The notes under the pieces were generated by a model. The model saw only the letters and a list, made by a program, of their open reading frames with translations, did no database searches and was not told the origin of the DNA. From the NCBI GenBank assembly GCA_001899445.1, contig MPOA01000006.1, positions 124,001 to 188,000 of the forward strand: 64,000 bases of DNA. The letters run 5' to 3'. This stretch comes from Candidatus Desulfopertinax cowenii. Lineage in GTDB: Bacteria; Bacillota; Desulfotomaculia; Desulfotomaculales; Desulforudaceae. The translations under genes and the position numbers were made by a program. Positions 2,136 through 56,799 of the stretch are shown piece after piece (the first letter of the stretch is position 1; each line of letters opens with the position of its first letter).

Positions 2136-5126
2136 ATGAAGGCAAGAAACGGTGCGAACAGCATAGTTCGACAACTAACCGTGTTACTAGTTACCGGGAT
2201 TGTGCTAGTTTTTGTCTTCGGTAACAGTGCCCGTGCCGCCAGCGAAATCATCGACCTTGAAGTCGGTGTAGAGGGCGAATACCAAACCATCACCGAGGCG
2301 GTATACGCCGCCGCCACCCAGTTTTCCAAGAGTACAGTACGAATCTGGGTCTACCCCGGAACGTACAGGGAAAACGTGGTTATCAACGTGGAAGGTCTAA
2401 CCATCGAGGGTGTAGGAGATCCGAATGAGATAGTGATTGAACCAGATCAGAACAAACACGTGATTAGCGTTGAAGCCAGCCGTGTTGAAATACGCAACGT
2501 AACGGTTACAGGCGCTACCCTGCTGGATCAGGCAGGTGTTTTCGTTGAAAACACTACTGGGGTTACCCTGTCCAAGATCGTTTCATGCAGCAACTCCCGC
2601 GGGGTTTACATTATTAACTCTACCGACTGCACAATACAGCAAAGCATTATCACGAACAACTCGAAATATGGAATAGCATTGGCTTGGGTTCAAAACTGCA
2701 CTATTAGAGATAACGACATTATTAACAATGGCATTGCTGGTATACGGGTAGTCGGAAGGAGCGATAACCCTTCCCATTCAAATACAATAGAGTTTAATCA
2801 TATTGCAGACAATGGAGCATATGGATTGGAGTTATACGGCCAACATGTTTGGAACACCAATGTGAACTGGAATGATGTTGTCGGAAACATTACCTACGGG
2901 CTTGAAAGCACGAATTCCGTTCAGGCGGCGTTTAACTGGTGGGGCCATCACAGTGGACCGTCAGGTGGACCTGATGGTGGCACGGGCGACAAAGTCAATG
3001 TTATGGTCAACTACGGCCCGTGGCTGGGAGCGCCGGTGGGGGCCACGCCCATGACCTTCCACCTGGACGCTACGTCGAAGACTTCCAAGACCATTTCTGA
3101 AACTATCCAGATAGCTGATCCCGGGGATACCATCGTTTTACACCCGGGCCATTACACCGAGAATGTTGTCCTTGACCAAAGCATCACGCTCCGGGGTGCC
3201 GGCGGCGTTGAGCGTCCGGTCCTCAGGCCGGAGACAGGGGCCGCCCTGGTTATCCGGGCAGGCAGTGCCACAGTGCAGGGCATTGAGCTGTTACGGATGT
3301 CTGATTCACCCGGAGTGATCATCGTGGGCACGGATGCAGAGGGCGCGAACAGTCCGACAGGTGTGGTGCTCGGCGGCCCGGACGCCATCCAGAACGACGA
3401 ACTACGCAACGTTTTTTCCGGGTACGATTGGATAACGCCGGCCATTACACTGACATACGACACGCAAATTTCAACCGCCGACGTCGAGGCCAGGTACAAT
3501 GATTGGGGTGACGGCGCTACGCGTGATTCCATCGCGGAGGCCGTTTACCACCAAGACCAGAACCCAGCACTCGGGCGGGTCGATTTCCTACCCGCCTATG
3601 CCGGCACGGAAATCATAACCCGCTGGCTGATCATCACTACCGACAACCTGCCGCCCGCCACGGCAGGCCAATCCTATGAAGCCATCCTCGAAGCAGCCGG
3701 TGGCGATGAAAACTATTACTGGGAGCTTCTCGGAGCACTGCCCGACGGTCTCGAACTAACTCCGGACGGTTTGATCACCGGTGTGCCGGTGCCGGACAAC
3801 GGCGACCGCACCCACAATTTCACCGTGCGGGTGACCGACCGCCAGGGGGAAACGGCGGAACGGAGCCTGAGTCTCCTGGTCCAAGAGGCCCAAGATCAGC
3901 TAAAGCAAGAAGAACCGGAACGCCCACCGGCCTCGGCGCGGACCCGAACGCGCACCGGCCACCGATTCATCTATTCACCCGCCGAAATCACTATTGTGTT
4001 AAACTTAGGCGCTTATCCGGGCAAACCTGTCAGGGTTGTCGTTCCCGGTGGCAGCCCGGCCGTGCGGATCGTCATTCCGCGTCTGGGCACTGACCCTGTG
4101 CCGCCCATCGACATTCTGGACGCCGGCGGCCGCTACCGGCTTTACCTTCCGGCCGGGAGCCTTGCCGGCGGTCGATCCGCTGAGTCCCGGGCGTCCGCTA
4201 CGGTGTTCGTTCTCCGCCCACAGCCGGCCCTTTCGGCTATTGCCCCGGTCGTGCAGATTAAAGCTTTGCACGACAACGGCCAGCCCCTGGACGCATTCGA
4301 CAGCCCGGTGCACCTCGGCTTGCGCTACAAACCGGCATCACCTTCCGAAGAAGTGCGGCTCGGGGTATACCGGTACGATTCAGAAACAGGATCGTGGCGG
4401 CACGTCGGCGGTCGCTTGGACCGAAACTCGCGGCTGGCGTGGGTTCCCCTGACCTCGTTCGGCAGCTACACAGTACTCAGCGGCGGTGAACACCGGTTTG
4501 CGGACGTCCCCAAGGATCATCCCGCTGGGGAGGCCATCGGCACGCTGGCGGCCAGAAGAATCCTGCGGGGTACCGGCGCGGACTTTTTCTTTCCCGGGGC
4601 AGTTCTCGACCGGGCCCAGGCGGCCGCTCTCATCCTAAGGCTGCTGTACCTTAAACCCGACCGTGCGGCGCACCCGGCCTTTCCCGACGTACGGCCGGAC
4701 AGCTGGTTTTTCGACCCCGTGCAACGGACTGCCGCGCTGGGCCTGATCTGCGGCTATCCCGACGGCAGCTTCCGCCCGCACCAAGGGATCTCCGAACAGG
4801 AGTTCTTATGTTTGCTCGCCCGGCTGCTCGAACGCAACGGCATCCGGTTATCAGCCCGGAAACCGGCCGCCCCCGCCTTTCATTCAGGCCGGCCCGACGG
4901 TCCGGAGCCGGCGCCCTGGGCTGCGGCCGATGTCGCCCGGATGTGGAAACACGGCATCGTCCGCGAGGCCTTCACTCCCAACGCGCCGGTCACCCGCGAA
5001 AGAGCCGCGGTCTGGACATGCCGAGTGTTGGAGCTCCTTGAAACCCGCGAAGGTGGCCAGGTACCACCCTGGCAAAACTCTCCACCAAGTCCCCGGCAAC
5101 CCGGTGACCACACCGGTGGTGCGTGA
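2136..5126 (+). CDS. Secreted parallel beta-helix protein with Ig-like and SLH domains
   Basis: A 996-residue surface protein. Residues 1-34 form a signal peptide ending ARA. Residues of about 45-280 are a right-handed beta-helix of the NosD/PbH1 type, with repeated short turns such as SRGVYIINSTDCTIQQSI. A second block, about 305-480, begins with a DPGDTIVLHPGHYTENVVL motif typical of pectate-lyase-like helices. Residues of about 500-585 resemble a putative Ig (He_PIG) domain (LPPATAGQSYEAIL, GLELTPDGLITGVP). Three SLH modules start near 786, 847 and 926 (FADVPKDHP, FPDVRPDSWF, WAAADVARMW) and should bind it to the cell wall. The beta-helix suggests carbohydrate binding or cleavage; no catalytic residues can be assigned. 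It is monocistronic, with GGGAG before the ATG. Confidence 0.88.
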   Translation: MKARNGANSIVRQLTVLLVTGIVLVFVFGNSARAASEIIDLEVGVEGEYQTITEAVYAAATQFSKSTVRIWVYPGTYRENVVINVEGLTIEGVGDPNEIVIEPDQNKHVISVEASRVEIRNVTVTGATLLDQAGVFVENTTGVTLSKIVSCSNSRGVYIINSTDCTIQQSIITNNSKYGIALAWVQNCTIRDNDIINNGIAGIRVVGRSDNPSHSNTIEFNHIADNGAYGLELYGQHVWNTNVNWNDVVGNITYGLESTNSVQAAFNWWGHHSGPSGGPDGGTGDKVNVMVNYGPWLGAPVGATPMTFHLDATSKTSKTISETIQIADPGDTIVLHPGHYTENVVLDQSITLRGAGGVERPVLRPETGAALVIRAGSATVQGIELLRMSDSPGVIIVGTDAEGANSPTGVVLGGPDAIQNDELRNVFSGYDWITPAITLTYDTQISTADVEARYNDWGDGATRDSIAEAVYHQDQNPALGRVDFLPAYAGTEIITRWLIITTDNLPPATAGQSYEAILEAAGGDENYYWELLGALPDGLELTPDGLITGVPVPDNGDRTHNFTVRVTDRQGETAERSLSLLVQEAQDQLKQEEPERPPASARTRTRTGHRFIYSPAEITIVLNLGAYPGKPVRVVVPGGSPAVRIVIPRLGTDPVPPIDILDAGGRYRLYLPAGSLAGGRSAESRASATVFVLRPQPALSAIAPVVQIKALHDNGQPLDAFDSPVHLGLRYKPASPSEEVRLGVYRYDSETGSWRHVGGRLDRNSRLAWVPLTSFGSYTVLSGGEHRFADVPKDHPAGEAIGTLAARRILRGTGADFFFPGAVLDRAQAAALILRLLYLKPDRAAHPAFPDVRPDSWFFDPVQRTAALGLICGYPDGSFRPHQGISEQEFLCLLARLLERNGIRLSARKPAAPAFHSGRPDGPEPAPWAAADVARMWKHGIVREAFTPNAPVTRERAAVWTCRVLELLETREGGQVPPWQNSPPSPRQPGDHTGGA

Positions 5127-5224
5127 AATACTCCCGGGCCCGGAATGTCGTCGTACCACTTTTTTGACCATCGGCCGCCGCCCGGAACTGCCGCGCACCC
5201 GCCCGATCTCGCTGGGCTGCAGAG

Positions 5225-5500
5225 TTACTCAAACTTATACCGGACCTCCAGGTCCGGACCCCCAATGTCCTTTTGCTGCACGATTTCCCCCTGGTAGATA
5301 ACCAGGAAGTGGGTCGGCCACACTTCGTGTTCACAACAAATCACCGGGGTGCAAGTTAGGTCGGGCCACTCCTGGTCCATCAGCGCCTCCGCCGGAGAGG
5401 AATACTGTTTAACAATCGTGCCCGCCCATCCGCCGCAGTATAGGCACCGGCCGGCCAGTACCGCCGTCATGGACATGATTTCACTTGGAATAATTCTCAT
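5225..5500 (-). CDS. Small cysteine-rich hypothetical protein
   Basis: A 91-residue protein I do not recognise. It starts at an ATG behind a clear AGGGGGTGG site. It has a CLYC pair near residues 19-22 and a CTPVICCEH cluster near 50-58, which could bind zinc or another metal. There is no signal peptide or membrane segment. It lies convergent to the SLH gene and upstream (on the same strand) of nothing within 98 bases; the deacetylase gene at 5554-6342 precedes it on the same strand with a 53-base gap, so the two could be cotranscribed. Confidence 0.6.
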   Translation of the reverse strand: MRIIPSEIMSMTAVLAGRCLYCGGWAGTIVKQYSSPAEALMDQEWPDLTCTPVICCEHEVWPTHFLVIYQGEIVQQKDIGGPDLEVRYKFE

Positions 5501-5553
5501 CCAGTATCCACCCCCTTAACCGGTAAGCCTTCATTGCCGTTCGTTTTGACCAG

Positions 5554-6342
5554 CTACACCGATGAACCGGCCGGGCCGGTCTCCACCATTAGGCAGGAAT
5601 AGTCGTGCAGGGTAATACCCTGGGCATCAAACCACGCCCGGACCTCGGGGGAACACAAAATGGCCAGTTCCCGCTGGCGTTCGGCGACGTAGGAACTCCT
5701 GGCGGCCAGAGCCATGTCGGCCAGGCCGGGATGGGTCATCAACTCCACCACCCGGTGCCCCTCGTTCATCGCCTCGTTAATCATCCGATACAGGTTTTCC
5801 AACGAGACCCCGGAACCGATCCACTCTCCGCAGAAGTGGTCTGGGGTGGCCACACCCCGGTTACGAAGTTTCTCCCGCATGTCCGGCTCCAGGTGCCGTA
5901 CTGGAAGACCATGGCGGCGCGCCACAGTAATCAACGCTTCCAATACCGCCGGATGACGGTGGATATGATGGTGGGTATCCAAGTGGGTGACAGTCAAGCC
6001 CCGCCGCAGAACCGTTTCGATCTGAGCCTCGAATTCCAGAACAATCTCCTGGACCCTGGGGTTCTGTTTCACAAAACGACTGGGGCGATGGAAAATGCCC
6101 TGCTTATCAACCAGTGACGGTAGGTCGGCGGAATTGGCGACCGGCCTACCGGCCGTAATGCAGAGGTGCACTCCGGCACTGGGTATTAACCCGCTACGCA
6201 GGTACTGGATGGCCGCTTCCGTTCCGTCCTGATTCACCATCAGGCTGGCACTGCTAAGAATACCGCGGCTAACTCCCAGAAGTATCGCCTGGTTTACTCC
6301 GGCGGTCAGTCCGAGATCGTCGGCGTTGACAATCAGTTTCAT
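5554..6342 (-). CDS. ChbG/YdjC-type carbohydrate deacetylase
   Basis: A 262-residue cytoplasmic hydrolase of the YdjC/ChbG family, which removes acetyl groups from N-acetylated sugars such as chitooligosaccharides; members in hopanoid and lipid pathways also exist. Seen in the sequence: the N-terminal VNADDLGLT metal-binding motif (D8, D9), a GVHLCITAGRPV segment around residue 57, and a HLDTHHHIHRHP histidine cluster around 120-131. A late VELMTHPG segment matches the family. The length is normal for the family. The substrate cannot be told from context. Confidence 0.85.
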   Translation of the reverse strand: MKLIVNADDLGLTAGVNQAILLGVSRGILSSASLMVNQDGTEAAIQYLRSGLIPSAGVHLCITAGRPVANSADLPSLVDKQGIFHRPSRFVKQNPRVQEIVLEFEAQIETVLRRGLTVTHLDTHHHIHRHPAVLEALITVARRHGLPVRHLEPDMREKLRNRGVATPDHFCGEWIGSGVSLENLYRMINEAMNEGHRVVELMTHPGLADMALAARSSYVAERQRELAILCSPEVRAWFDAQGITLHDYSCLMVETGPAGSSV

Positions 6343-23390: not shown

Positions 23391-26300
23391 TTAAATGGCA
23401 AGCACACTACCGGTGGCAAAGAGGTACAGGTAACGCTCTTTGACGCGGGCGTTTAGAATTGACTCCACCGCCCGGGAGTACAGGTTGAGCTGGCTCCGGT
23501 ACCGGTCCGTCAACTCCGCTTCCCGCCCCGGGGCCACCTGATCGGTTTTGTAGTCGATCAGAACCAGGCCGTCCGGCTCCGCGAACAGGCAGTCGATAAT
23601 CCCCTGTACCACGACGGGTTCCTCTCCGGACCCGCAGCCCGAGATCCCCTCGACGCCCTGGCAGCTATCGCGGCGGTTCATCTCTTCCGGATAAAGCTCC
23701 CGCGCCGGAACGATCAGGTAAAAGGGCAGTTCGCGCCGGACCCAACCGGCACGGACCAGCCGGCCGCCCAGCGGTCCAGCAAAGAAGCGGGCGAGGGCCG
23801 ACGCGTCAATCGCCGCCGCTTCCGCGGCGGTCAGTAGTTCCCGGGACTCCATATCCGCGATCTGTTCCCTGATTCCCTCGGTGCTGAGGTCCCCCTCAAG
23901 TTCCAGGAGTTGCAGCACCAGGTGCACCGCCGCACCGTACTCCGCCCCAGACAGCCCCCGCGGAACCTGCAGAAACCGGGGCCGACGGGTGATCGAATAG
24001 CGGTAAAGCCGGTCAGTTTCTTCCGCGGCGGCCAGGGTATCAAAACGCCGTTTGACCTCGGTGGCGGTCACCTTGGCCGGCAACGTGAAAAGCAGCGGCC
24101 GCGGATAGTTCCAGGACAGGACACCGGCCACCTGTAACTCGGCTTCCGGGTCGCCGGCCGGGACCGGTTCCAGGAGGCGCAGCCGTTCCAACGTTTCGCC
24201 GGCCGCCGGGCGGCCCGCACCCGTCCCGTCTTCCGCCGCGTCAAAGCGATGCAGGTGTACCTCCCAGCGGGATGGATCGCTCACCGGCACCCCGGTGGTA
24301 AAAACCCGGCCGGCACACCGGCGCAGGGCCTCAGCATCCGAATGAGCCGCGAGGACCGGAACTAGCCAATCCAGGAAGCTGCGCGCTTCCGCCAACGCGG
24401 GGACCGGTAACTTGCCGTCCTCCGCCGCCTCCACCACCTCGCCCCACCGGGCGAGCGCCTCATCCAGCCCGGCCACCGACCCGGTCAGAATCAGCCGGTC
24501 CCGGGCTCTGGTCATCCCCACGTACAGAATCCGCATCTCCTCGGCCAGTTGTTCCAGGTGCAACCGTTCCCGCAACGCGTGCCAGGCCACCGTGGGGTAA
24601 CTCACCCTGGCCTCCGGGTCGACATACAGCGGTCCCAGGCCAAGATCCTTGTGGAACAGCACGTCCCGGTTCAGGTCCGACGTATAAAACCGCCGCCCCA
24701 GGTCGGCCAGGATCACCACCGGGAACTCCAGCCCCTTGCTCTGGTGGATGCTCATCACCCGGACCACGTCTTCGGTTTCGGCCAGCACCGGCGCCGGCCC
24801 CAAGTCCTGTCCTCCTTCCCGCAGCAGTTCCAGGAACCGTAGGAACCGGAACAACCCTCGGAAAGTGGTGGCTTCGTACTGCCGCGCCCGGTCGTGCAAA
24901 GCGCGCAGATTGGCCTGACGCTCGGCACCTCCCGGCATGGCCCCGGCGTAGTCGTAGTAACCGGTTTCCCGGTAAACGGTCCAGATCAGGTTGGCCAGGG
25001 ACCCCTGCCGGGCTTGGGTGCGCCAGCGTTCTAGATTGGCCAGGAAACAGGACAGCTTTTCCCCTAAACTCCCACCTTTTTCGGCCGTTGCGGCCGCCGC
25101 CTGGTAGAAGTCCCCGTCCGGGTGGGCAAGCCGGATCTCGGCCAGGTCCGCCGCCCGCAACCCTACGATGGGCGACCGCAACACCGCCGCCAAGGGAATG
25201 TCCTGGCGGGGATTGTCGATGACCTTCAGCAGCGCCAGCACGGTGGCCACCTCGGTGGCCTCGAAGTAACCGGTCCCCGTTTTCGCGTGGGCCGGAATGT
25301 CCAACCGGCGGAACTCCTCCAGGTAGGTGTTGGCCTTGCCAGCAGTGGCGCGCAGCAGCACCACGATGTCCCGGTAGCGTATCGGGCGGGCTCCGCCGGT
25401 GTCGGGATCGCGAACGTGCGCTGGCCCGGTTGATCCGGTTCCGGACACTAGACGTCTGATAATCCCGGCCACCAGCCGGGCCTCGCGTTGGATGACATCG
25501 GTGTCGGTATCCGCGGCCGGTTCCCCGTCCTGCTCCCCGGAAGGCGCGTCGGTTTCCGCCGGTCGTCGTTCCAGCAGGTGCACTTGTACCGGCTCCGCGC
25601 CGCCGGAGGATGGGGGTTTTTGCCCGCAGACCAGTTCGGCCACGCGGTCGTACTCCATTTCGCCCACCACCGGGGTCATGATCCGGCGAAAGATGTAGTT
25701 CACGGCATCGACGATCCCCGGCCGGCTGCGGAAATTGTGAATCAGGTCGATGCGCCGCGAGGACACCCCGTCCTCCGGAGGGTACTCCCGGTACTTCTTG
25801 AGAAACAACTCCGGCTCGGCCAAGCGAAACCGGTAGATACTTTGCTTCACATCCCCAACCAAGAACAGGTTGGGTCCCGCCTCCACTGGCCGGGACACCA
25901 GTTGCAGAATCGCCTCCTGCACCATGTTGATGTCCTGGTACTCGTCCACCAGCACCTCGGCGAAGTATTTCCGGTATTCCGCAGCTACAGCCGACGGATG
26001 GAGCCGCCCCGGCGCCGAGTCCGGCGCCAGCAGCACCCGCAGGCAGTAGTGTTCTAGATCGCCGAAGTCTACCAGGTTACGGTCCAACTTAGCTCTCCGG
26101 TAGGCTTCCCCGAACACCGCCGTCAGTTGGACCAGCCGCCGCATGGCGGGCGCCATCCCCGCCAGGTCCCCGAGCAGTTCCCCCGGCGCCCGGGAGAAAA
26201 AGTGCGCCCGCAACTCGCGAAAGCGATCCCGGGCCCGCTTGCGCAGTTCACCGCAGCGGTCTTTCAGTTCCGGGTCTACGGCGGCGGCATCCACCCGGGG

Positions 26301-27167
26301 TAACCGCTTGGCAAAGTCAAAGCCCAGTATCCCGGCGCGCAAGTCCTCCCAGGCATCGCCCGCCGCACGCGCGACCAGGGCCTCCACCGCGGCGGCTTCC
26401 TCCTGCAGGATGGCACCGTAGGCTGTGGCCCCCCCCGGCACGGCGGTCAGCCGGAGTGCCATCTGCAATTCGTACAGAATTAACTGGAGCTTTAAGCGCA
26501 CCAGGTCGCGCAAGGCGGCAGCAAGTGGCCCCTCCCCGTCCAGGCCGCCGTCCGTTAGGCCACAGTGCGCCGCCCGTGCTAACCAGTCCTCGGGCCAGGG
26601 GTTGCTGCGGGCAAAGTGGTACAGGCGCAACACCAACTTTTGCAGCTTCAGGTCGTCTCGTTCGCCCCCGTAACTCTCCACCAGGAAACGGAAAGCGGGG
26701 TCTTTGTCGATCTCCCGGTAGTGTTCTTCGATCACGGCGGCCAGGGTTTCCTGACGCAGGATAGCCGCCTCGATCTCGTTCGCCACCCGAAACTCGGGGT
26801 CCAAGTCCAGCAGATAATAGTATCGGCGCAATACCTCTCCGCAGAAGGAGTGTAGCGTGGTGATCTGCGCCTGGGGGAGCAACCGCAGTTGCCGTTCCAG
26901 CCGCTCCGACGCCGGGTCTTTATTGAGCGCTTCATTGATAGCCGCTCCGATCCGCTTGCGCATCTGGGCGGCCGCCGCGTTAGTAAAAGTAACCACCAGC
27001 AGCCGGTCCACATCCACCGGTCGTACGGGGTCGCAAAGCAAGCGGATGATCCTCTCCACCAGCACCGCCGTCTTCCCGGAACCAGCACCGGCGGCTACCA
27101 GCAGGTTCTGGTTCCGAGCCTCTATGGCGGCCCGCTGAGCTTCTGTCCAGTTCAGCTTGCCGATCAC
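23391..27167 (-). CDS. addA: ATP-dependent helicase/nuclease subunit A (AddA)
   Basis: A 1258-residue helicase-nuclease that, with AddB, resects double-strand breaks for recombination. Walker A is AGAGSGKT at 26-33, the DEXX-type motif VDEYQDIN is near 407, and a UvrD-like C-terminal helicase part carries MSIHQSKGLEFPVV and ILYVGMTRARDRLIL. The nuclease domain ends the protein: QGIIDCLF, LVLIDYKTDQ and YRSQLNLYSRA (about 1185-1230). The start is the GTG at 27167, four bases after the addB stop, with GGAGGAGTGA spanning that stop. Before the nuclease motif lies a linker (SCQGVEGISGCGSGEE) whose first part duplicates 21 bases found in nrdJ. Confidence 0.95.
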   Translation of the reverse strand: MIGKLNWTEAQRAAIEARNQNLLVAAGAGSGKTAVLVERIIRLLCDPVRPVDVDRLLVVTFTNAAAAQMRKRIGAAINEALNKDPASERLERQLRLLPQAQITTLHSFCGEVLRRYYYLLDLDPEFRVANEIEAAILRQETLAAVIEEHYREIDKDPAFRFLVESYGGERDDLKLQKLVLRLYHFARSNPWPEDWLARAAHCGLTDGGLDGEGPLAAALRDLVRLKLQLILYELQMALRLTAVPGGATAYGAILQEEAAAVEALVARAAGDAWEDLRAGILGFDFAKRLPRVDAAAVDPELKDRCGELRKRARDRFRELRAHFFSRAPGELLGDLAGMAPAMRRLVQLTAVFGEAYRRAKLDRNLVDFGDLEHYCLRVLLAPDSAPGRLHPSAVAAEYRKYFAEVLVDEYQDINMVQEAILQLVSRPVEAGPNLFLVGDVKQSIYRFRLAEPELFLKKYREYPPEDGVSSRRIDLIHNFRSRPGIVDAVNYIFRRIMTPVVGEMEYDRVAELVCGQKPPSSGGAEPVQVHLLERRPAETDAPSGEQDGEPAADTDTDVIQREARLVAGIIRRLVSGTGSTGPAHVRDPDTGGARPIRYRDIVVLLRATAGKANTYLEEFRRLDIPAHAKTGTGYFEATEVATVLALLKVIDNPRQDIPLAAVLRSPIVGLRAADLAEIRLAHPDGDFYQAAAATAEKGGSLGEKLSCFLANLERWRTQARQGSLANLIWTVYRETGYYDYAGAMPGGAERQANLRALHDRARQYEATTFRGLFRFLRFLELLREGGQDLGPAPVLAETEDVVRVMSIHQSKGLEFPVVILADLGRRFYTSDLNRDVLFHKDLGLGPLYVDPEARVSYPTVAWHALRERLHLEQLAEEMRILYVGMTRARDRLILTGSVAGLDEALARWGEVVEAAEDGKLPVPALAEARSFLDWLVPVLAAHSDAEALRRCAGRVFTTGVPVSDPSRWEVHLHRFDAAEDGTGAGRPAAGETLERLRLLEPVPAGDPEAELQVAGVLSWNYPRPLLFTLPAKVTATEVKRRFDTLAAAEETDRLYRYSITRRPRFLQVPRGLSGAEYGAAVHLVLQLLELEGDLSTEGIREQIADMESRELLTAAEAAAIDASALARFFAGPLGGRLVRAGWVRRELPFYLIVPARELYPEEMNRRDSCQGVEGISGCGSGEEPVVVQGIIDCLFAEPDGLVLIDYKTDQVAPGREAELTDRYRSQLNLYSRAVESILNARVKERYLYLFATGSVLAI
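23643..23675 (-). repeat. 33-nt segment shared with nrdJ (copy in addA)
   Basis: This copy lies in the variable linker just before the AddA nuclease domain. It encodes SCQGVEGI in the same frame as nrdJ at 16115-16147, with the first 21 bases identical. In AddA the segment does not look like conserved family sequence, so here it may be an insertion. Confidence 0.5.
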
Positions 27168-27171
27168 GGGC

Positions 27172-30100
27172 TCACTCCTCCGGCACGCCGAGTTCGCGCC
27201 ATATCTTCGCCCCGGATACCGGTCGCAGGCGGCGGTACCGGTTGGGCTCCACGAGCGGGTCGAAAGCGCACAAGGGCTTGTACGGACAAAAGGTACAGGC
27301 GCAAGCACCCCCTTTGCGGTACGGGGCGATAGCCAGTTCTCCCGCCTGGATTTGCGCTCCGGTCTCGGTGATGATTCGGTTTAGGTGCTGACGCAACCGC
27401 CCGAATTGCTCCGCCTGCACTACGGTGGATTTCCGACGCAGGCTCCCATCCCGCCTGAATCCGGCGGCAATCACCACGGACTCGCCCGTCGCCGCTTCGT
27501 CCATCAACCGGACCAGTTCGGGTTCGGCCAGCACTAGACCCTGCAACCGGAACGCCTTGAGCAGTTCCTGCTGGATCTCGTGGGGCATGGCCGGTGTGTT
27601 CCGCCGGAGCAACGGGTTTTGTATTCGGCAGTAGAAAGCGCCCCCGGGCCGACAGGGACGGCCCACGATTTTCTCGGCGTGAGTAAGGCAGGCCTCCAGG
27701 TAAACCAGGAGCTGCAAATTGAGGCCATAGTAAATATCATCCAGCCGCAACGCTGGGGTACCGGCCTTGTAGTCGATCACCCGGACGTAATCGCCGCCTT
27801 CCGCCCGCGCCACGTCGACCCGGTCAATTCGCCCGGCCAGTTCCAGTACCGCCCCGGAGGGCAACGGGTACACCAGCGGCGGAATCTCATGTCCGCGGCC
27901 GAACGGTAGTTCCCAGGCCACCGGGCGGAAGCGACCCCGGCGGGCGTGCGCTGCTAGCGCCCGGGCAGTGTGCTCGACGATCCGGCCCAGCTTGCCCACC
28001 AGGAATCGGTGCCGGGACGAGCTTAGCAGGATCTCGCTCTGAAGTTGCGGCGCCAGGCGCTTCACCACCTCCTCGGCCAAACGCCGGCAGTCCGATGCCT
28101 CCAAGGCGCCCCAGTCCAGGGAGGCGGCCGCTAGTTGATCCTCCATTGTCTTTAAGGCCGCGTGGAAGAACCGGCCCAGGTCGGGCGCCTCCAGCCGGAA
28201 CACGGGCCGCTCCTGAAGCCGTAACCCGTAGCGGGCGAAGTGGGCAAACGGACACGCCCGAAACCTTTCTAGCCTCGTAACGCTGACCACCAGCGGGTTG
28301 CCGTAAAGCCTGGGGCCCAGTTCGGGGTCCAGCGGCCGTTCCCGGTTGTGGTGGAACAGCCCGCTCAGCACCCGCGCGCACTGCGAACGCCACTCGGCCC
28401 GGCCACAGAACCAATTGTACACGGCCCACCAGACCGGGTCGATCCGGTATCCCGCCCGCCAGTCCCGCAGCCTAGCCCCGAGGTATCCCAGGGCGCGCCT
28501 CGGCACCGAGATGAACGGCCAGTCTACCCCGTCAGCGGTGCCGCGGGGTTCCACCGGCAAGGCTACCTCCCGCAGGTCCGGGAACAGTTCCCGCAGGCGG
28601 GGGATAACCCCGGACGGCGCCAGCGCCCGCCCCTCTTCGTCGGCCAGGGGGTAACTAACCCACAGGTACTCGCTGCTCCGCGTAAGCGCGATATACACCA
28701 GGTACTGCTCCTCGTACGCCCGGCGCCGGGCGTACGGGGCCACTTCGAGCCCGGCCGCGAAAAGCGTTTCTCGCTCCCGGTCGGTGAACAGCCCGGTGTC
28801 GGTGTGGCGCGCGGGCAGCACGCCCTCGGACACGCCCAGGACGAAAGCCGCCCGGATGTCCGGGTTGCGGGAATGCTCCAGGGAACCGACGAGCACTTGG
28901 TCCAGCGCCGGGGGAATCAAGGCCAATTGCAGCCCCTCCAGCCCGGAATCCAGGATCCGGGTGTATTCCTCCAGGGAAAGGTGCTCATCCCCCAACGTCT
29001 CCACTAATTGGTCAAGTAGTTCGATCACGCTGTCCCACACCTGTCGGTGTTCCCGGGCAACTTCCAATCGTCCCTCCGCCTCGGCCTCCCGGCTCCACGC
29101 CGCGAGGCGCTCTGGTACGCCCAGCACGGATAAGAGGTCGTACAATGCCGCGGTGAGTTCACGGACGTTTTGCGCCGTCGCCACCGCGCGCTGAAACGCC
29201 AGCAAGTCCCGCACCGCCCGCCGCCGTACCCGGTTGATCCAGTCCAGCCACTTTCGGTCGGCCGCCGTCGGCTCGCCCCGCTCCAAGGTCAGGGAACGGC
29301 AGTAGTGCCAGTCCTGGTCGTCGGCCCACTTTGCGCCATGAATTCCGTGCGCTAGCACGTAGTTTTCCAGGAGGTCGATTTCTTCGCGGGACACCGGAGC
29401 CAGATCAGTCTTCAGGTAGCGGAACACCGGATCGTAGGCCCAGTCGCGGCCCACTACCTCCAGGGCGGAACGGATCAGTTCGATCAGAGGGTGGTGCCAC
29501 ACGGGACGCTTTCGGTCGATGAAGCAGGGAATCCCATAGTCTGGGAACACCGTGGCCAGCAATTCGTGGTAGTCCCCCAGATTCCGGACAATCACGGACA
29601 CGTCCCGCCAACGGTAGCCCCGCTCCCGGCACAGCCGCACGATCTCCCGGGCCGCGCCCTCCACCTCGGCGCGCCGGTTAGCAGCCGCCACCAGCCTCAG
29701 CCCGGGCGCACCGCGGTAAACGGCCGTGGGCCGGCGGAAGAATTCCCGTTCCAGGTGGGCCAGGCCGGGGCTGGTTTTGAACCGGGGTAGCTCCCCCGAG
29801 TAGAGCTTTACCGCCGGCTCGATTTCGATCCCGTTCCTCCGGGCCAACTCGGAAAGCCGGGCGTAGGTTTCCCGGGGCAGGAGAAAGAGCTCTTCATCCT
29901 CGCGTCTCCCGGTGTCCGGGTCGAGGCAGAGCGCCACGTTCACCCGTGCCGCCGCGCGCAGCAAGGCCTCCAAAACCCGGAACTCTTGGGGCGTGAAGCC
30001 GGCGAATCCGTCCACCCACACCTCGGCGGCGCGTACCGTCCGGCTCCGGGACAACTGCACCGCCGCCAGGGTCAGGTAATCGTCGGGGTCGACGTACCGG

Positions 30101-30627
30101 CCCGCCAACCGGGCTTCGAAGTCTTCGTACACCAGCCGCAGGTCCTGCAGTTTGGCTTCCAGGGTGGGCGCGCCCCTCAGCCCGGCCACCCACTCCCCCG
30201 CACGGCCCAGATCCCCCGGGGTGACGAGGTAAATCTTCATCTCGGAAAGCGCCCGGGCCAGGGTTCCGGTAAAGCCGAACTGCCGGGCCGCCCGGCCAAA
30301 GACACGCAACTCGCGGCGGCGGCGCTCCAGGATACGGGCGATGACCATCCGCTTGCCCAGTTCCCCGATATGCGGCCGGGCGGCGCCGCCCGCCTCGAAA
30401 AACACGCGCCACGCCAGCCGCCGGAAGCTGAGCACCTGGGCGCGCATTGTACCGGCCAGCCCAGGGGTGGCGGCCAGGGCGTATTCGGTTTGGAAGGTAG
30501 CCTGTTCCGGTACCAGAAAAAGGAGCGGCGGCCCGTCCGGTGCCTGCCGCAGTTGATGCCTAATTTCCTCCAGGCAAAAGTGAGTTTTTCCGGAACCCGC
30601 CCGGCCCAAAATGAAACGTACCGACAA
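27172..30627 (-). CDS. addB: ATP-dependent nuclease subunit B (AddB)
   Basis: A 1151-residue partner of AddA. It has Walker A GRAGSGKT at 8-15, an inactive-helicase-like body, and the C-terminal nuclease domain with RVIDYKAGTPAL. Four cysteines that hold an iron-sulfur cluster in the family are visible: one in FRACPFAHF near residue 788, and three in CACTFCPYKPLC near the end. The start is TTG, nine bases after GGAG and 23 bases behind the fused nuclease-ATPase gene. The order AddB then AddA with a four-base gap is the common Firmicute arrangement. Confidence 0.95.
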   Translation of the reverse strand: MSVRFILGRAGSGKTHFCLEEIRHQLRQAPDGPPLLFLVPEQATFQTEYALAATPGLAGTMRAQVLSFRRLAWRVFFEAGGAARPHIGELGKRMVIARILERRRRELRVFGRAARQFGFTGTLARALSEMKIYLVTPGDLGRAGEWVAGLRGAPTLEAKLQDLRLVYEDFEARLAGRYVDPDDYLTLAAVQLSRSRTVRAAEVWVDGFAGFTPQEFRVLEALLRAAARVNVALCLDPDTGRREDEELFLLPRETYARLSELARRNGIEIEPAVKLYSGELPRFKTSPGLAHLEREFFRRPTAVYRGAPGLRLVAAANRRAEVEGAAREIVRLCRERGYRWRDVSVIVRNLGDYHELLATVFPDYGIPCFIDRKRPVWHHPLIELIRSALEVVGRDWAYDPVFRYLKTDLAPVSREEIDLLENYVLAHGIHGAKWADDQDWHYCRSLTLERGEPTAADRKWLDWINRVRRRAVRDLLAFQRAVATAQNVRELTAALYDLLSVLGVPERLAAWSREAEAEGRLEVAREHRQVWDSVIELLDQLVETLGDEHLSLEEYTRILDSGLEGLQLALIPPALDQVLVGSLEHSRNPDIRAAFVLGVSEGVLPARHTDTGLFTDRERETLFAAGLEVAPYARRRAYEEQYLVYIALTRSSEYLWVSYPLADEEGRALAPSGVIPRLRELFPDLREVALPVEPRGTADGVDWPFISVPRRALGYLGARLRDWRAGYRIDPVWWAVYNWFCGRAEWRSQCARVLSGLFHHNRERPLDPELGPRLYGNPLVVSVTRLERFRACPFAHFARYGLRLQERPVFRLEAPDLGRFFHAALKTMEDQLAAASLDWGALEASDCRRLAEEVVKRLAPQLQSEILLSSSRHRFLVGKLGRIVEHTARALAAHARRGRFRPVAWELPFGRGHEIPPLVYPLPSGAVLELAGRIDRVDVARAEGGDYVRVIDYKAGTPALRLDDIYYGLNLQLLVYLEACLTHAEKIVGRPCRPGGAFYCRIQNPLLRRNTPAMPHEIQQELLKAFRLQGLVLAEPELVRLMDEAATGESVVIAAGFRRDGSLRRKSTVVQAEQFGRLRQHLNRIITETGAQIQAGELAIAPYRKGGACACTFCPYKPLCAFDPLVEPNRYRRLRPVSGAKIWRELGVPEE

Positions 30628-30650: not shown

Positions 30651-32738
30651 CTAACTCAGGGACTTTTCGCGCTTACTGCTCGCCCGGATCGAACTCCCGC
30701 GCCCGTACAACACGCTGGCTCCGGACTCGAAGCGCAATATGAACACCGCGTCCGCGGTGCCGGCCAGATGCTGGCTGTGGGTGACGACGATTATCTGGCG
30801 GCCGAAGGAATCAGAGAAGGTTTTAAACAGCCGGGAGACGTGGGACGCAAAACGGCTGCTTACCTGTTTCACCGGCTCGTCGAGGATCAGGGGGCCCCCC
30901 AGCGGGGGCTGCGTCAACTCCAGGAAGGCCACCCGCAACGCCACCGAGATTACGTCCACCACCCCGCCGCCGCATGCGCTCTGGACGGCGTGGTACAGGT
31001 TGACACTGCCGGGCTCCAGGACCATTAGGAATTCGGCCTTCGGTGTCACCGACTGATCATCTAGCAAAATATGAAATTCGGGAGCCGGGTCAAACACGGA
31101 ACCCAGCGCCTGGTTTACGATATCCTGGATCCGGAAACAAACCTCCTCGCGGGATCTGGCCGCCGCCTGGGAAAGTAGCGTGCCCACCTGTTTCAGGAAC
31201 CGGGGGTCCGGCTGACGCGCGTCGTTTTCGAGGGCCAGGCGGGCCAAGCGCTCCGCTTCCTGCCGGGCGGCCTCGAACCGGAGCGCGCCGGACAGGCGGT
31301 CGATGGCCCGGGCTTTCACCGTGTCGGAATAGGATAGCAGAAACGGCTCCGCTTGTTCGGACGCAATATGTAAACAGACGTGCACGTCATCGTCCAGTTC
31401 CACCCGCGGCAGTTCGGCCGCCCGGGCTGGCTCGCCGTCCGGGAACGGGTTACCGGCATCTGTTCCGGCGGCACCCAAGGACGAGACACCGGGCGCCGCG
31501 CCCATTTTGGAGGGCACGTACTCGCGGAAAACCAAGCGCTGGTTACCAAACACCCCGGTCACTCTGCTGTAAGCTTCGCCTGTACGGAGGAAACTGTTCG
31601 CCGGGGGCTCGTTAAATAAAAGCCACTGCAACGCCCGGACAATCGCGCTCTTACCCTGGTTGGATTCGCCCAGAATCACGTTCAACCCAGGAGCAAATTC
31701 CAGGTCGGTGTAGAGGTGGGATTGGAAGTTCTCAATCACCAGCCGCCGCAGATGCCGCCCGTCCCACTCGTTCTCGTCCCGCTCCCGGACACAGGATAAC
31801 AGCCGTAACGCCTCCCGGGTCACCTCCGCCGGGAAAGCTTCCCGGCATGCCACCTCCCGCAGGATATCGGAGAAGTCGTGGCCGCCATCCCCGTTATCCG
31901 CGTTTTGCCCCACCGGCGGCTGCTTTTTTCCCCGGCGGACCATAAGCGGGGTTGTGGCGGTATTGAGCACTTCGATGCCCGGGCGCGCTGCCTGCAGAGG
32001 AATCTTGTGATGGGCCGGCACGGACCCGGAGAAATCGATCAGCAGCACCTGCGGTGTCCGCTCGCGGTCAACCGGGTGCGCCGACAGGCGGACGAGCGAG
32101 CCCGGGTTGATGAACCAGCGCCCCTCCCACTCCACATCTGGGTAGCCGAAGTGGGCGTGGCTCCCCAGCGTGTAGTCGGCCTCGGTGAACGGAGCGATCT
32201 GGCTAATGAGCGTGTACGGAGTGCCCGGGAAAAAGGGTCGGTCCAACAGCATCCCGTGCGCCAGATGGATCGCGAAGTCGCAGTTTTCCTTGGTCACGCA
32301 GTAGTCCAGCAGAGGGTCCTGGCGGTCAATGTTGTAGTGGAAAGGCGTGCCGGTAAGCTGGACAGTAACCCGCCCGTCTTTCAAGTACAGCTTCTCGCCG
32401 GCCTGCAGCACCCTTAGGCAGCCCACCTGGTGCAGCAGCCCAAGCACGGTGTGTTCGAGGGTATCGGGATTGCAGGCAAAGATGTCGTGGTTGCCCGGAA
32501 CCACGTAGACGGCAACGTCCATGTCCCGGAAAATCCTGACAAACTCCCCGACCACTGGCAACTCCGGACAGGGCTGATCGAAAAAGTCGCCTCCGTGCAG
32601 CACGGCAAACACGCCCAGTTTGCGGACCAGCCCGGCCACTTCTAGTAGCTTAGCCCGCAGCGTCGCCGGAAAGTCGTCCCGCCGGTTGCGCGGGTTACCG
32701 CTGCGAATGTGGGTGTCGGTCAGGTAGAGCAAGCGCAT
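30651..32738 (-). CDS. Fused SbcD (Mre11)-like nuclease and SbcC (Rad50)-like ATPase without long coiled coil
   Basis: A 695-residue protein combining two usually separate subunits. Residues 1 to about 250 are a metallophosphoesterase: DTH (8-10), GDFFD (50-54), GNHD (82-85), HLAHG and GSHAHFG near 193, the set of SbcD/Mre11. From about 330 an ABC-type ATPase head follows: RLVIENFQSHLYTDLEF, Walker A GESNQGKS near 358, a degenerate signature ACGGGVVDVIS, Walker B LILDEPVKQVS near 618 and the histidine loop VTHSQH near 652. Only about 260 residues separate Walker A and B, so the long SbcC coiled coil and zinc hook are missing; a short helical stretch remains. I use ATG 32738. It lies 23 bases ahead of addB, so break processing is the likely role (inference). 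Confidence 0.85.
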   Translation of the reverse strand: MRLLYLTDTHIRSGNPRNRRDDFPATLRAKLLEVAGLVRKLGVFAVLHGGDFFDQPCPELPVVGEFVRIFRDMDVAVYVVPGNHDIFACNPDTLEHTVLGLLHQVGCLRVLQAGEKLYLKDGRVTVQLTGTPFHYNIDRQDPLLDYCVTKENCDFAIHLAHGMLLDRPFFPGTPYTLISQIAPFTEADYTLGSHAHFGYPDVEWEGRWFINPGSLVRLSAHPVDRERTPQVLLIDFSGSVPAHHKIPLQAARPGIEVLNTATTPLMVRRGKKQPPVGQNADNGDGGHDFSDILREVACREAFPAEVTREALRLLSCVRERDENEWDGRHLRRLVIENFQSHLYTDLEFAPGLNVILGESNQGKSAIVRALQWLLFNEPPANSFLRTGEAYSRVTGVFGNQRLVFREYVPSKMGAAPGVSSLGAAGTDAGNPFPDGEPARAAELPRVELDDDVHVCLHIASEQAEPFLLSYSDTVKARAIDRLSGALRFEAARQEAERLARLALENDARQPDPRFLKQVGTLLSQAAARSREEVCFRIQDIVNQALGSVFDPAPEFHILLDDQSVTPKAEFLMVLEPGSVNLYHAVQSACGGGVVDVISVALRVAFLELTQPPLGGPLILDEPVKQVSSRFASHVSRLFKTFSDSFGRQIIVVTHSQHLAGTADAVFILRFESGASVLYGRGSSIRASSKREKSLS

Positions 32739-32846
32739 ACTTTCATTTCCCAAAATAGATTACTTTTTCTGCTCCCTCCAGAGATTCTATGCTCCGGACA
32801 AGAAATCCTGCCCGTAAAAACGCCCTTGCCCGGCACCACCTCGGCG

Positions 32847-56705: not shown

Positions 56706-56799
56706 GGGAGTGGATGGGTCCTGGTGGGCCTCCTGGTCTTCAAAACCAGTCGCGGGGTGAGAAACCCTGGGTGGGTTCGATTCCCACGCACTCCCGCCA
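56706..56799 (+). tRNA. selC: tRNA-Sec (anticodon TCA)
   Basis: A 94-base tRNA with the layout of bacterial selenocysteine tRNA. The acceptor arm GGGAGTG pairs with CACTCCC before G and an encoded CCA. The anticodon stem CTGGT/ACCAG holds the loop CTTCAAA, with anticodon TCA at 56740-56742. A long variable arm (GGGG..CCCT) and the TTCGATTC T-loop follow. TCA reads UGA, so the organism inserts selenocysteine. The sel genes are not in this window. Confidence 0.95.

Follow-up and report, generated by a model that had tools for sequence, protein, structure and literature searches.

The arms and zinc hook of Rad50 are regarded as central to the protein; in yeast, loss of about 500 residues of its coil abolishes homologous recombination functions (PMC6315862). 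The bacterial SbcCD complex uses ATP to clip blocked DNA ends and hairpins (PMC6265447). In Bacillus subtilis, its genes form part of the operon addB-addA-sbcD-sbcC, and SbcC and AddAB are non-epistatic despite this shared operon (PMC1533848). Nuclease and ATPase can also share a chain: Mre11/Rad50 (SbcDC) fusion proteins were described in 2011, including Mimivirus R555, which has 1351 residues and a predicted coil comparable to that of cellular homologues (PMC3175470). In two further fusions, from Anaerostipes and from Bacillus phage 0305phi8-36, one of the P-loop segments was not observed (PMC3175470). These two may consist of a metallophosphoesterase (MPE) joined to an ATPase N-lobe, with a separate C-lobe. 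In archaea, a HerA-NurA-Mre11-Rad50 gene cluster is known, in which Rad50 is one chain (PMC2288612).

The window considered here is a stretch of 64,000 nucleotides from Candidatus Desulfopertinax cowenii. It contains a minus-strand gene (open reading frame 32753..30651, ATG at 32738, stop at 30651) in which nuclease and ATPase are joined in one chain of 695 residues, in the same order as in R555 but without the coil (Table 1). With canonical SbcCD and Mre11-Rad50 the protein shares the Mre11 metal ligands, a Rad50-type head and, as in B. subtilis, linkage to addAB; it differs in being a single chain with neither coil nor zinc hook, in its degenerate signature, and in having no obvious full capping domain. 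A first-pass annotation, made from the DNA alone, took SbcD and SbcC to be separate proteins elsewhere, which in view of the 2011 fusions is not strictly true. An Mre11/Rad50 fusion is thus in itself already known; among open-licence papers, no description was found of a coil-less, hook-less one, of a 'split Rad50', or of the fusion gene in Desulforudis.

Table 1. The fused gene, its parts and its neighbours, in window coordinates.
Feature	Position	Strand	Description and evidence
Whole gene	30651..32738	-	single-chain MPE (Mre11/SbcD-like) + Rad50-like ABC ATPase, 695 aa
Metallophosphoesterase domain, residues 1-262	31953..32738	-	Pfam Metallophos 4.5e-9; all Mre11-type metal ligands
Two predicted helices, residues 289-299 and 304-315	31794..31874	-	AlphaFold
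ABC N-lobe with Walker A, residues 328-470	31329..31757	-	AAA_23 1.3e-11; phrog_16465 2.7e-20; AlphaFold
Walker A GESNQGKS, residues 357-364	31647..31670	-	sequence; family conservation
Stub helices at the Rad50 coiled-coil place, hookless, residues 472-548	31095..31325	-	AlphaFold; coiled-coil prediction
ABC C-lobe, residues 549-690	30669..31094	-	phrog_15167 3.3e-34; AlphaFold
Degenerate signature ACGGGVVDVIS, residues 588-598	30945..30977	-	family consensus GGGVxDVIS
Walker B LILDEP, residues 617-622	30873..30890	-	sequence; family conservation
H-loop His654	30777..30779	-	sequence; family conservation
addB	27172..30627	-	starts 23 bp past fusion gene; ADDB_N 7.9e-103, PDDEXK_1; TIGR02773 1223 bits
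addA	23391..27308	-	UvrD-helicase, UvrD_C, PDDEXK_1; frame as listed

The first-pass annotation had described a single-chain nuclease and ABC ATPase on the strength of phosphoesterase, Walker A, Walker B and histidine-loop motifs. All of these are located in the 695-residue frame, which bears out the description, and profile searches with both halves agree (Metallophos with Mre11/SbcD for one, AAA_23 with Rad50 chains for the other). The nuclease domain is an Mre11-type metallophosphoesterase with a full set of metal ligands: DTH (residues 8-10), GDFFD (50-54), GNHD (82-85), H161 and GSHAHFG (192-198), of which D8, H10, D51, N83, H84, H161, H194 and H196 are invariant in an alignment of 25 relatives. 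Among solved structures, Mre11 and SbcD come out on top when a profile built from 25 members of the family is searched (6.8e-11, entry 3qg5). The other half is a bipartite ABC head of Rad50 type with Walker A, Walker B and H-loop all present, and Rad50 supplies its top PDB chains in phmmer. A canonical LSGG-type signature is absent from the fused protein and the D-loop aspartate is replaced (LDEPVKQVS). The degenerate signature that had been noted is indeed there; it is not, however, peculiar to the fused gene, as GGGVxDVIS stands in this place throughout the family, split forms included. In PHROGs the ABC half falls into two separate families, one for the N-lobe and one for the C-lobe; it was this that first suggested a split ATPase in other genomes.

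The distance from the Walker A lysine to the Walker B aspartate is 257 residues, against an initial estimate of about 260. The long coiled coil and the CxxC zinc hook are both missing, as proposed from the start: a Lupas-type score predicts no coiled coil in the fused protein (maximum P 0.02), whereas the split N-lobe proteins tested in the same way reach P 0.99 or more, and a sequence scan finds no CxxC past the N-lobe. The AlphaFold model, built on a 37-row alignment of which only four rows spanned the nuclease half, shows a confident ABC head: pLDDT is about 90 or higher over most of residues 331-680 and weaker around 411-440. Helices 472-483, 485-504 and 512-548 occupy the position of the Rad50 coil, so that sequence and model together indicate replacement of coil and hook by a short helical hairpin. 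Searched with Foldseek, the ABC model retrieves Rad50 heads on top (best PDB match 3qkt_A, E 6.4e-16); this and the AAA_23 match place the C-terminal half within the ABC ATPase superfamily. The alignment is shallow over the nuclease half, whose model is therefore of low confidence; it is sequence comparison that identifies this half as Mre11-like. The two halves are joined by a short linker and two helices, 289-299 and 304-315; the helices have block-mean pLDDT values of 91-92 (residues 291-310) and 77 (residues 311-320), and are a candidate remnant of the Rad50-binding helix-loop-helix of Mre11.

The same fusion occurs, intact and stop-free, in five other genomes, two of the same genus (G001, G002) and three of the same family (G004, G006, G007), with lengths of 679-783 residues. 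This makes six fusion-bearing genomes in two genera; among 113 genomes of the order, the one-frame fusion is confined to the window's family. Purifying selection acts on both ABC lobes and on the nuclease domain: dN/dS is 0.1-0.25 overall, with 0.10-0.15 for the nuclease domain and 0.10-0.24 for the lobes, as compared with 0.19-1.1 for linker and inserts. Of the parts of the gene, the nuclease domain is conserved best; the ATPase lobes evolve faster. Two irregularities were seen within this set. Between the window and G001 (L031), the nuclease half (31953-32738) has a dS of 0.30 and the remainder of the gene 1.2-2.5, as if the nuclease half had recently been exchanged by recombination. The longest fusion, that of G006 (L034:6353-8704, minus strand; 783 residues), carries long Gly/Pro-rich inserts in its ATPase, and the AddB of this genome is also longer than usual.

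Relatives, scanned with home-made profiles, place the fused gene among direct homologues in a split Rad50-like operon of Bacillota (PHROG 16465 and 15167). The recurrent gene order is nurA - herA - MPE - ABC_N - SM - ABC_C (Pfam: NurA 3.4e-21, HerA 2.3e-15), and the ATPase appears from sequence to be made in three pieces: an N-lobe with coil and hook, a small coiled-coil protein (SM) and a C-lobe. The MPE has about 325 residues, ABC_N 431-535 (more where the frame over-extends), SM 77-111 and ABC_C about 216-240. These are the same partners as in the archaeal cluster, in which Rad50 differs in being one chain (PMC2288612). Every complete cellular ABC_N of the operon set has a CPxC 18-32 residues from its C-terminus, and the AlphaFold model of one of them (445 residues) shows long helices 158-249, 257-298 and 301-411, followed by CPLC and a short helix. 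SM has a conserved GVxPEEL turn and looks like a helical hairpin, while ABC_C carries GGGVxDVIS, Walker B and H-loop. The split forms provide a Rad50 in which the part with the hook is a chain of its own; compact and fused forms have neither the three chains nor the long coil and CPxC hook. Between fused and split homologues, the nuclease shows about 40-55% identity and the ATPase lobes 33-46%.

The split set is found in Ammonifex, Syntrophomonadaceae, Thermoactinomycetaceae, Peptoniphilus, Mahella and others, in similar places on Bacilli plasmids, and in viral contigs and Bacillus phage vB_BboS-125; searches from the viral relatives returned few further named phages. In vB_BboS-125 the N-lobe and C-lobe carry separate annotations as chromosome segregation proteins, and the nuclease gene is unannotated (L123, about 4869-5678; MH884509.1 22426-23235). 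Two viral contigs (L110, L111) have an intermediate architecture, with the nuclease fused to ABC_N and ABC_C separate. The length of the ABC_N arm looks quantised in steps of about 47 residues: distances from Walker A to CPxC cluster at 285, 331, 383, 430, 476 and 572 (L042, L045, L066, L075, L078 and others), with 389-392, 310-320 and 481 outside the clusters, and the coil has a lag-47/94 self-similarity.

A compact type consists of a separate MPE and one ATPase of about 352-406 residues without CxxC; it occurs in five genomes (G003, G005, G008, G012, G021), the fused type in six. Fused forms are one clade in the nuclease tree (100/99), among compact and split forms, and again in the ATPase tree (100/99), where fused and compact forms lie on one side of a branch (98/96). 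Both the window-type fusion and the two-gene coil-less type are apparently derived from split forms, and the simplest reading of the sequences would run from split via compact to fused, on trees that are unrooted and in which the compact branches are long. The proposal of a distinct, untethered Mre11-Rad50 branch holds in so far as the fused forms make up a clade of their own that is coil-less and hook-less; what it missed is the apparent origin from a split, three-gene form. Supply of the coil in trans by SM is rejected: SM is absent from every reduced genome searched and present in three split controls. In G021 (57% complete), alongside a compact locus, another nuclease fragment lies on the nurA contig (C72, C197), and compact and split types may coexist there.

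The position of the fused gene 23 bases ahead of addB, in the same orientation and with addA next, is confirmed; the start of addA is probably downstream of the listed one, since its frame overlaps addB. A survey along the lines first suggested finds all six fused genes directly ahead of addB. This place is also taken by the compact ATPase gene of G012 and by nuclease-only genes of G013 and Pelotomaculum; in the compact genomes G003, G005 and G008, AddB is elsewhere in the genome, away from the ATPase gene. AddAB accompanies the reduced forms in this order, and NurA-HerA the split ones. Full AddB is found in all reduced-form genomes except the incomplete G021 (that of G002 is cut by a contig end), and NurA in none of the fused-form genomes. 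NurA is present in each of the eleven split-form genomes, and AddB passes the cut-off in none of them; for 34 further genomes reached via loci, nearly all split form, the counts are 32 and 0, although frames distantly resembling AddB occur in some and a broken AddB in one Pelotomaculum record. The nuclease-only G013 has both AddB and NurA. This association is to be taken as a lead, and no statistical significance is claimed for it because the family tree gives only 1-2 independent contrasts. Searches of the window genome reveal no NurA, HerA-like protein, SM or canonical SbcC; the HerA matches are short P-loop matches in frames of 730 and 372 residues. No HerA-NurA pair was thus found elsewhere in this genome, in contrast to the archaeal arrangement. 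Canonical SbcC is present in G002, G004, G005 and G007, and in G004 the fused protein may therefore have another task.

These data make it probable that the window protein is a predicted coil-less, single-chain, Mre11-Rad50-type ATP-dependent DNA-end nuclease that prepares ends for AddAB, a partnership suggested by the gene order and the distribution above. In principle, two copies would dimerise both via their nuclease domains and via ATP sandwiched between the ABC heads. Binding of ATP would shut the heads on a DNA end; hydrolysis would then give access to the nuclease sites, and these would clip hairpins or protein-blocked ends locally. Without arms, such a dimer could neither tether ends nor form an arm rod. 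What is needed for clipping is retained in the fused protein, and what is needed for tethering is lost. The proposal is that it cleans ends ahead of AddAB: it would supply blunt, clean ends, on which AddAB would load, resecting them to 3' tails for RecA. The arms could have been given up once AddAB had replaced HerA-NurA as the resection engine. Several points weigh against this reading: the effect of coil truncation in yeast (PMC6315862), the non-epistasis of SbcC and AddAB in B. subtilis (PMC1533848), the additional canonical SbcC in G004, the degenerate signature and replaced D-loop aspartate, the few independent contrasts behind the AddAB association, and the low-confidence model of the nuclease half.

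The B. subtilis result keeps alive a second, rather unlikely reading, in which the same enzyme works parallel to AddAB, clipping hairpins, cross-links and protein adducts at forks, and adjacency reflects co-regulation of repair genes only. There, SbcC and AddAB act independently although co-operonic (PMC1533848), and the remote AddB genes of the compact G003, G005 and G008 fit the same picture; the invariable position of the fused genes, shared by the ATPase gene of G012 and by the genes for the nuclease alone in G013 and Pelotomaculum, does not. An improbable alternative is that ATP-driven cutting has been lost and the protein serves AddAB, under ATP control, as a sensor of ends or a loading factor. 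The degenerate signature, altered D-loop, loss of the coil and faster evolution of the ATPase lobes would be in keeping with this, as would AddAB-linked relatives that have the nuclease domain alone. Yet Walker A, the Walker B glutamate, the H-loop and all metal ligands are conserved, the nuclease domain is the best-conserved part, and the odd signature is common to split forms too. RecF and RecN share an SMC-like ABC head, have no fused nuclease, and in the case of RecF no long coil. A nuclease-RecF chimera with a RecN/RecF-like ABC half and no Mre11-Rad50 logic is very improbable: the best NCBIfam match of the head is RecN (6.4e-13, against 3.5e-9 for Rad50) over a short N-lobe stretch, but structural matches to RecF and RecN are weaker than those to Rad50 heads, Rad50 leads the phmmer chains, and the split relatives pair their Mre11-like nuclease with an N-lobe whose coil and CPxC hook are characteristic of Rad50. 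That a sequencing or assembly frameshift joined two genes can be dismissed, even though two-gene compact relatives exist, since the same stop-free fusion is present in six genomes of two genera with dN/dS well below 1.

For the preferred reading, that of an end-preparing nuclease for AddAB, a wider scenario can be put forward as possible rather than probable: Rad50 was split into three chains with arms of 47-residue modules, then rejoined armless and fused to its nuclease when AddAB replaced HerA-NurA, giving an untethered end-cleaning enzyme and a distinct branch of the superfamily. If true, arms and hook would be dispensable in a natural setting. The fused form is a conserved, natural version without them; the series of apparent intermediates, comprising the hook-bearing three-gene split, the two-gene compact form and the one-gene fusion, makes the role of the arms directly testable. 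The fused protein also offers a small, one-chain reagent for structural studies of how ATP gates the Mre11 nuclease.

A nuclease-only paralogue of about 260 residues belongs to one family (L052, L053, L054, L055, L056, L098); its gene lies just ahead of addB in L053 and L098 and near addB in L052, and adjoins a topoisomerase gene in L055. Elsewhere in the window, a tRNA-Sec gene is located at 56706-56799 on the plus strand.
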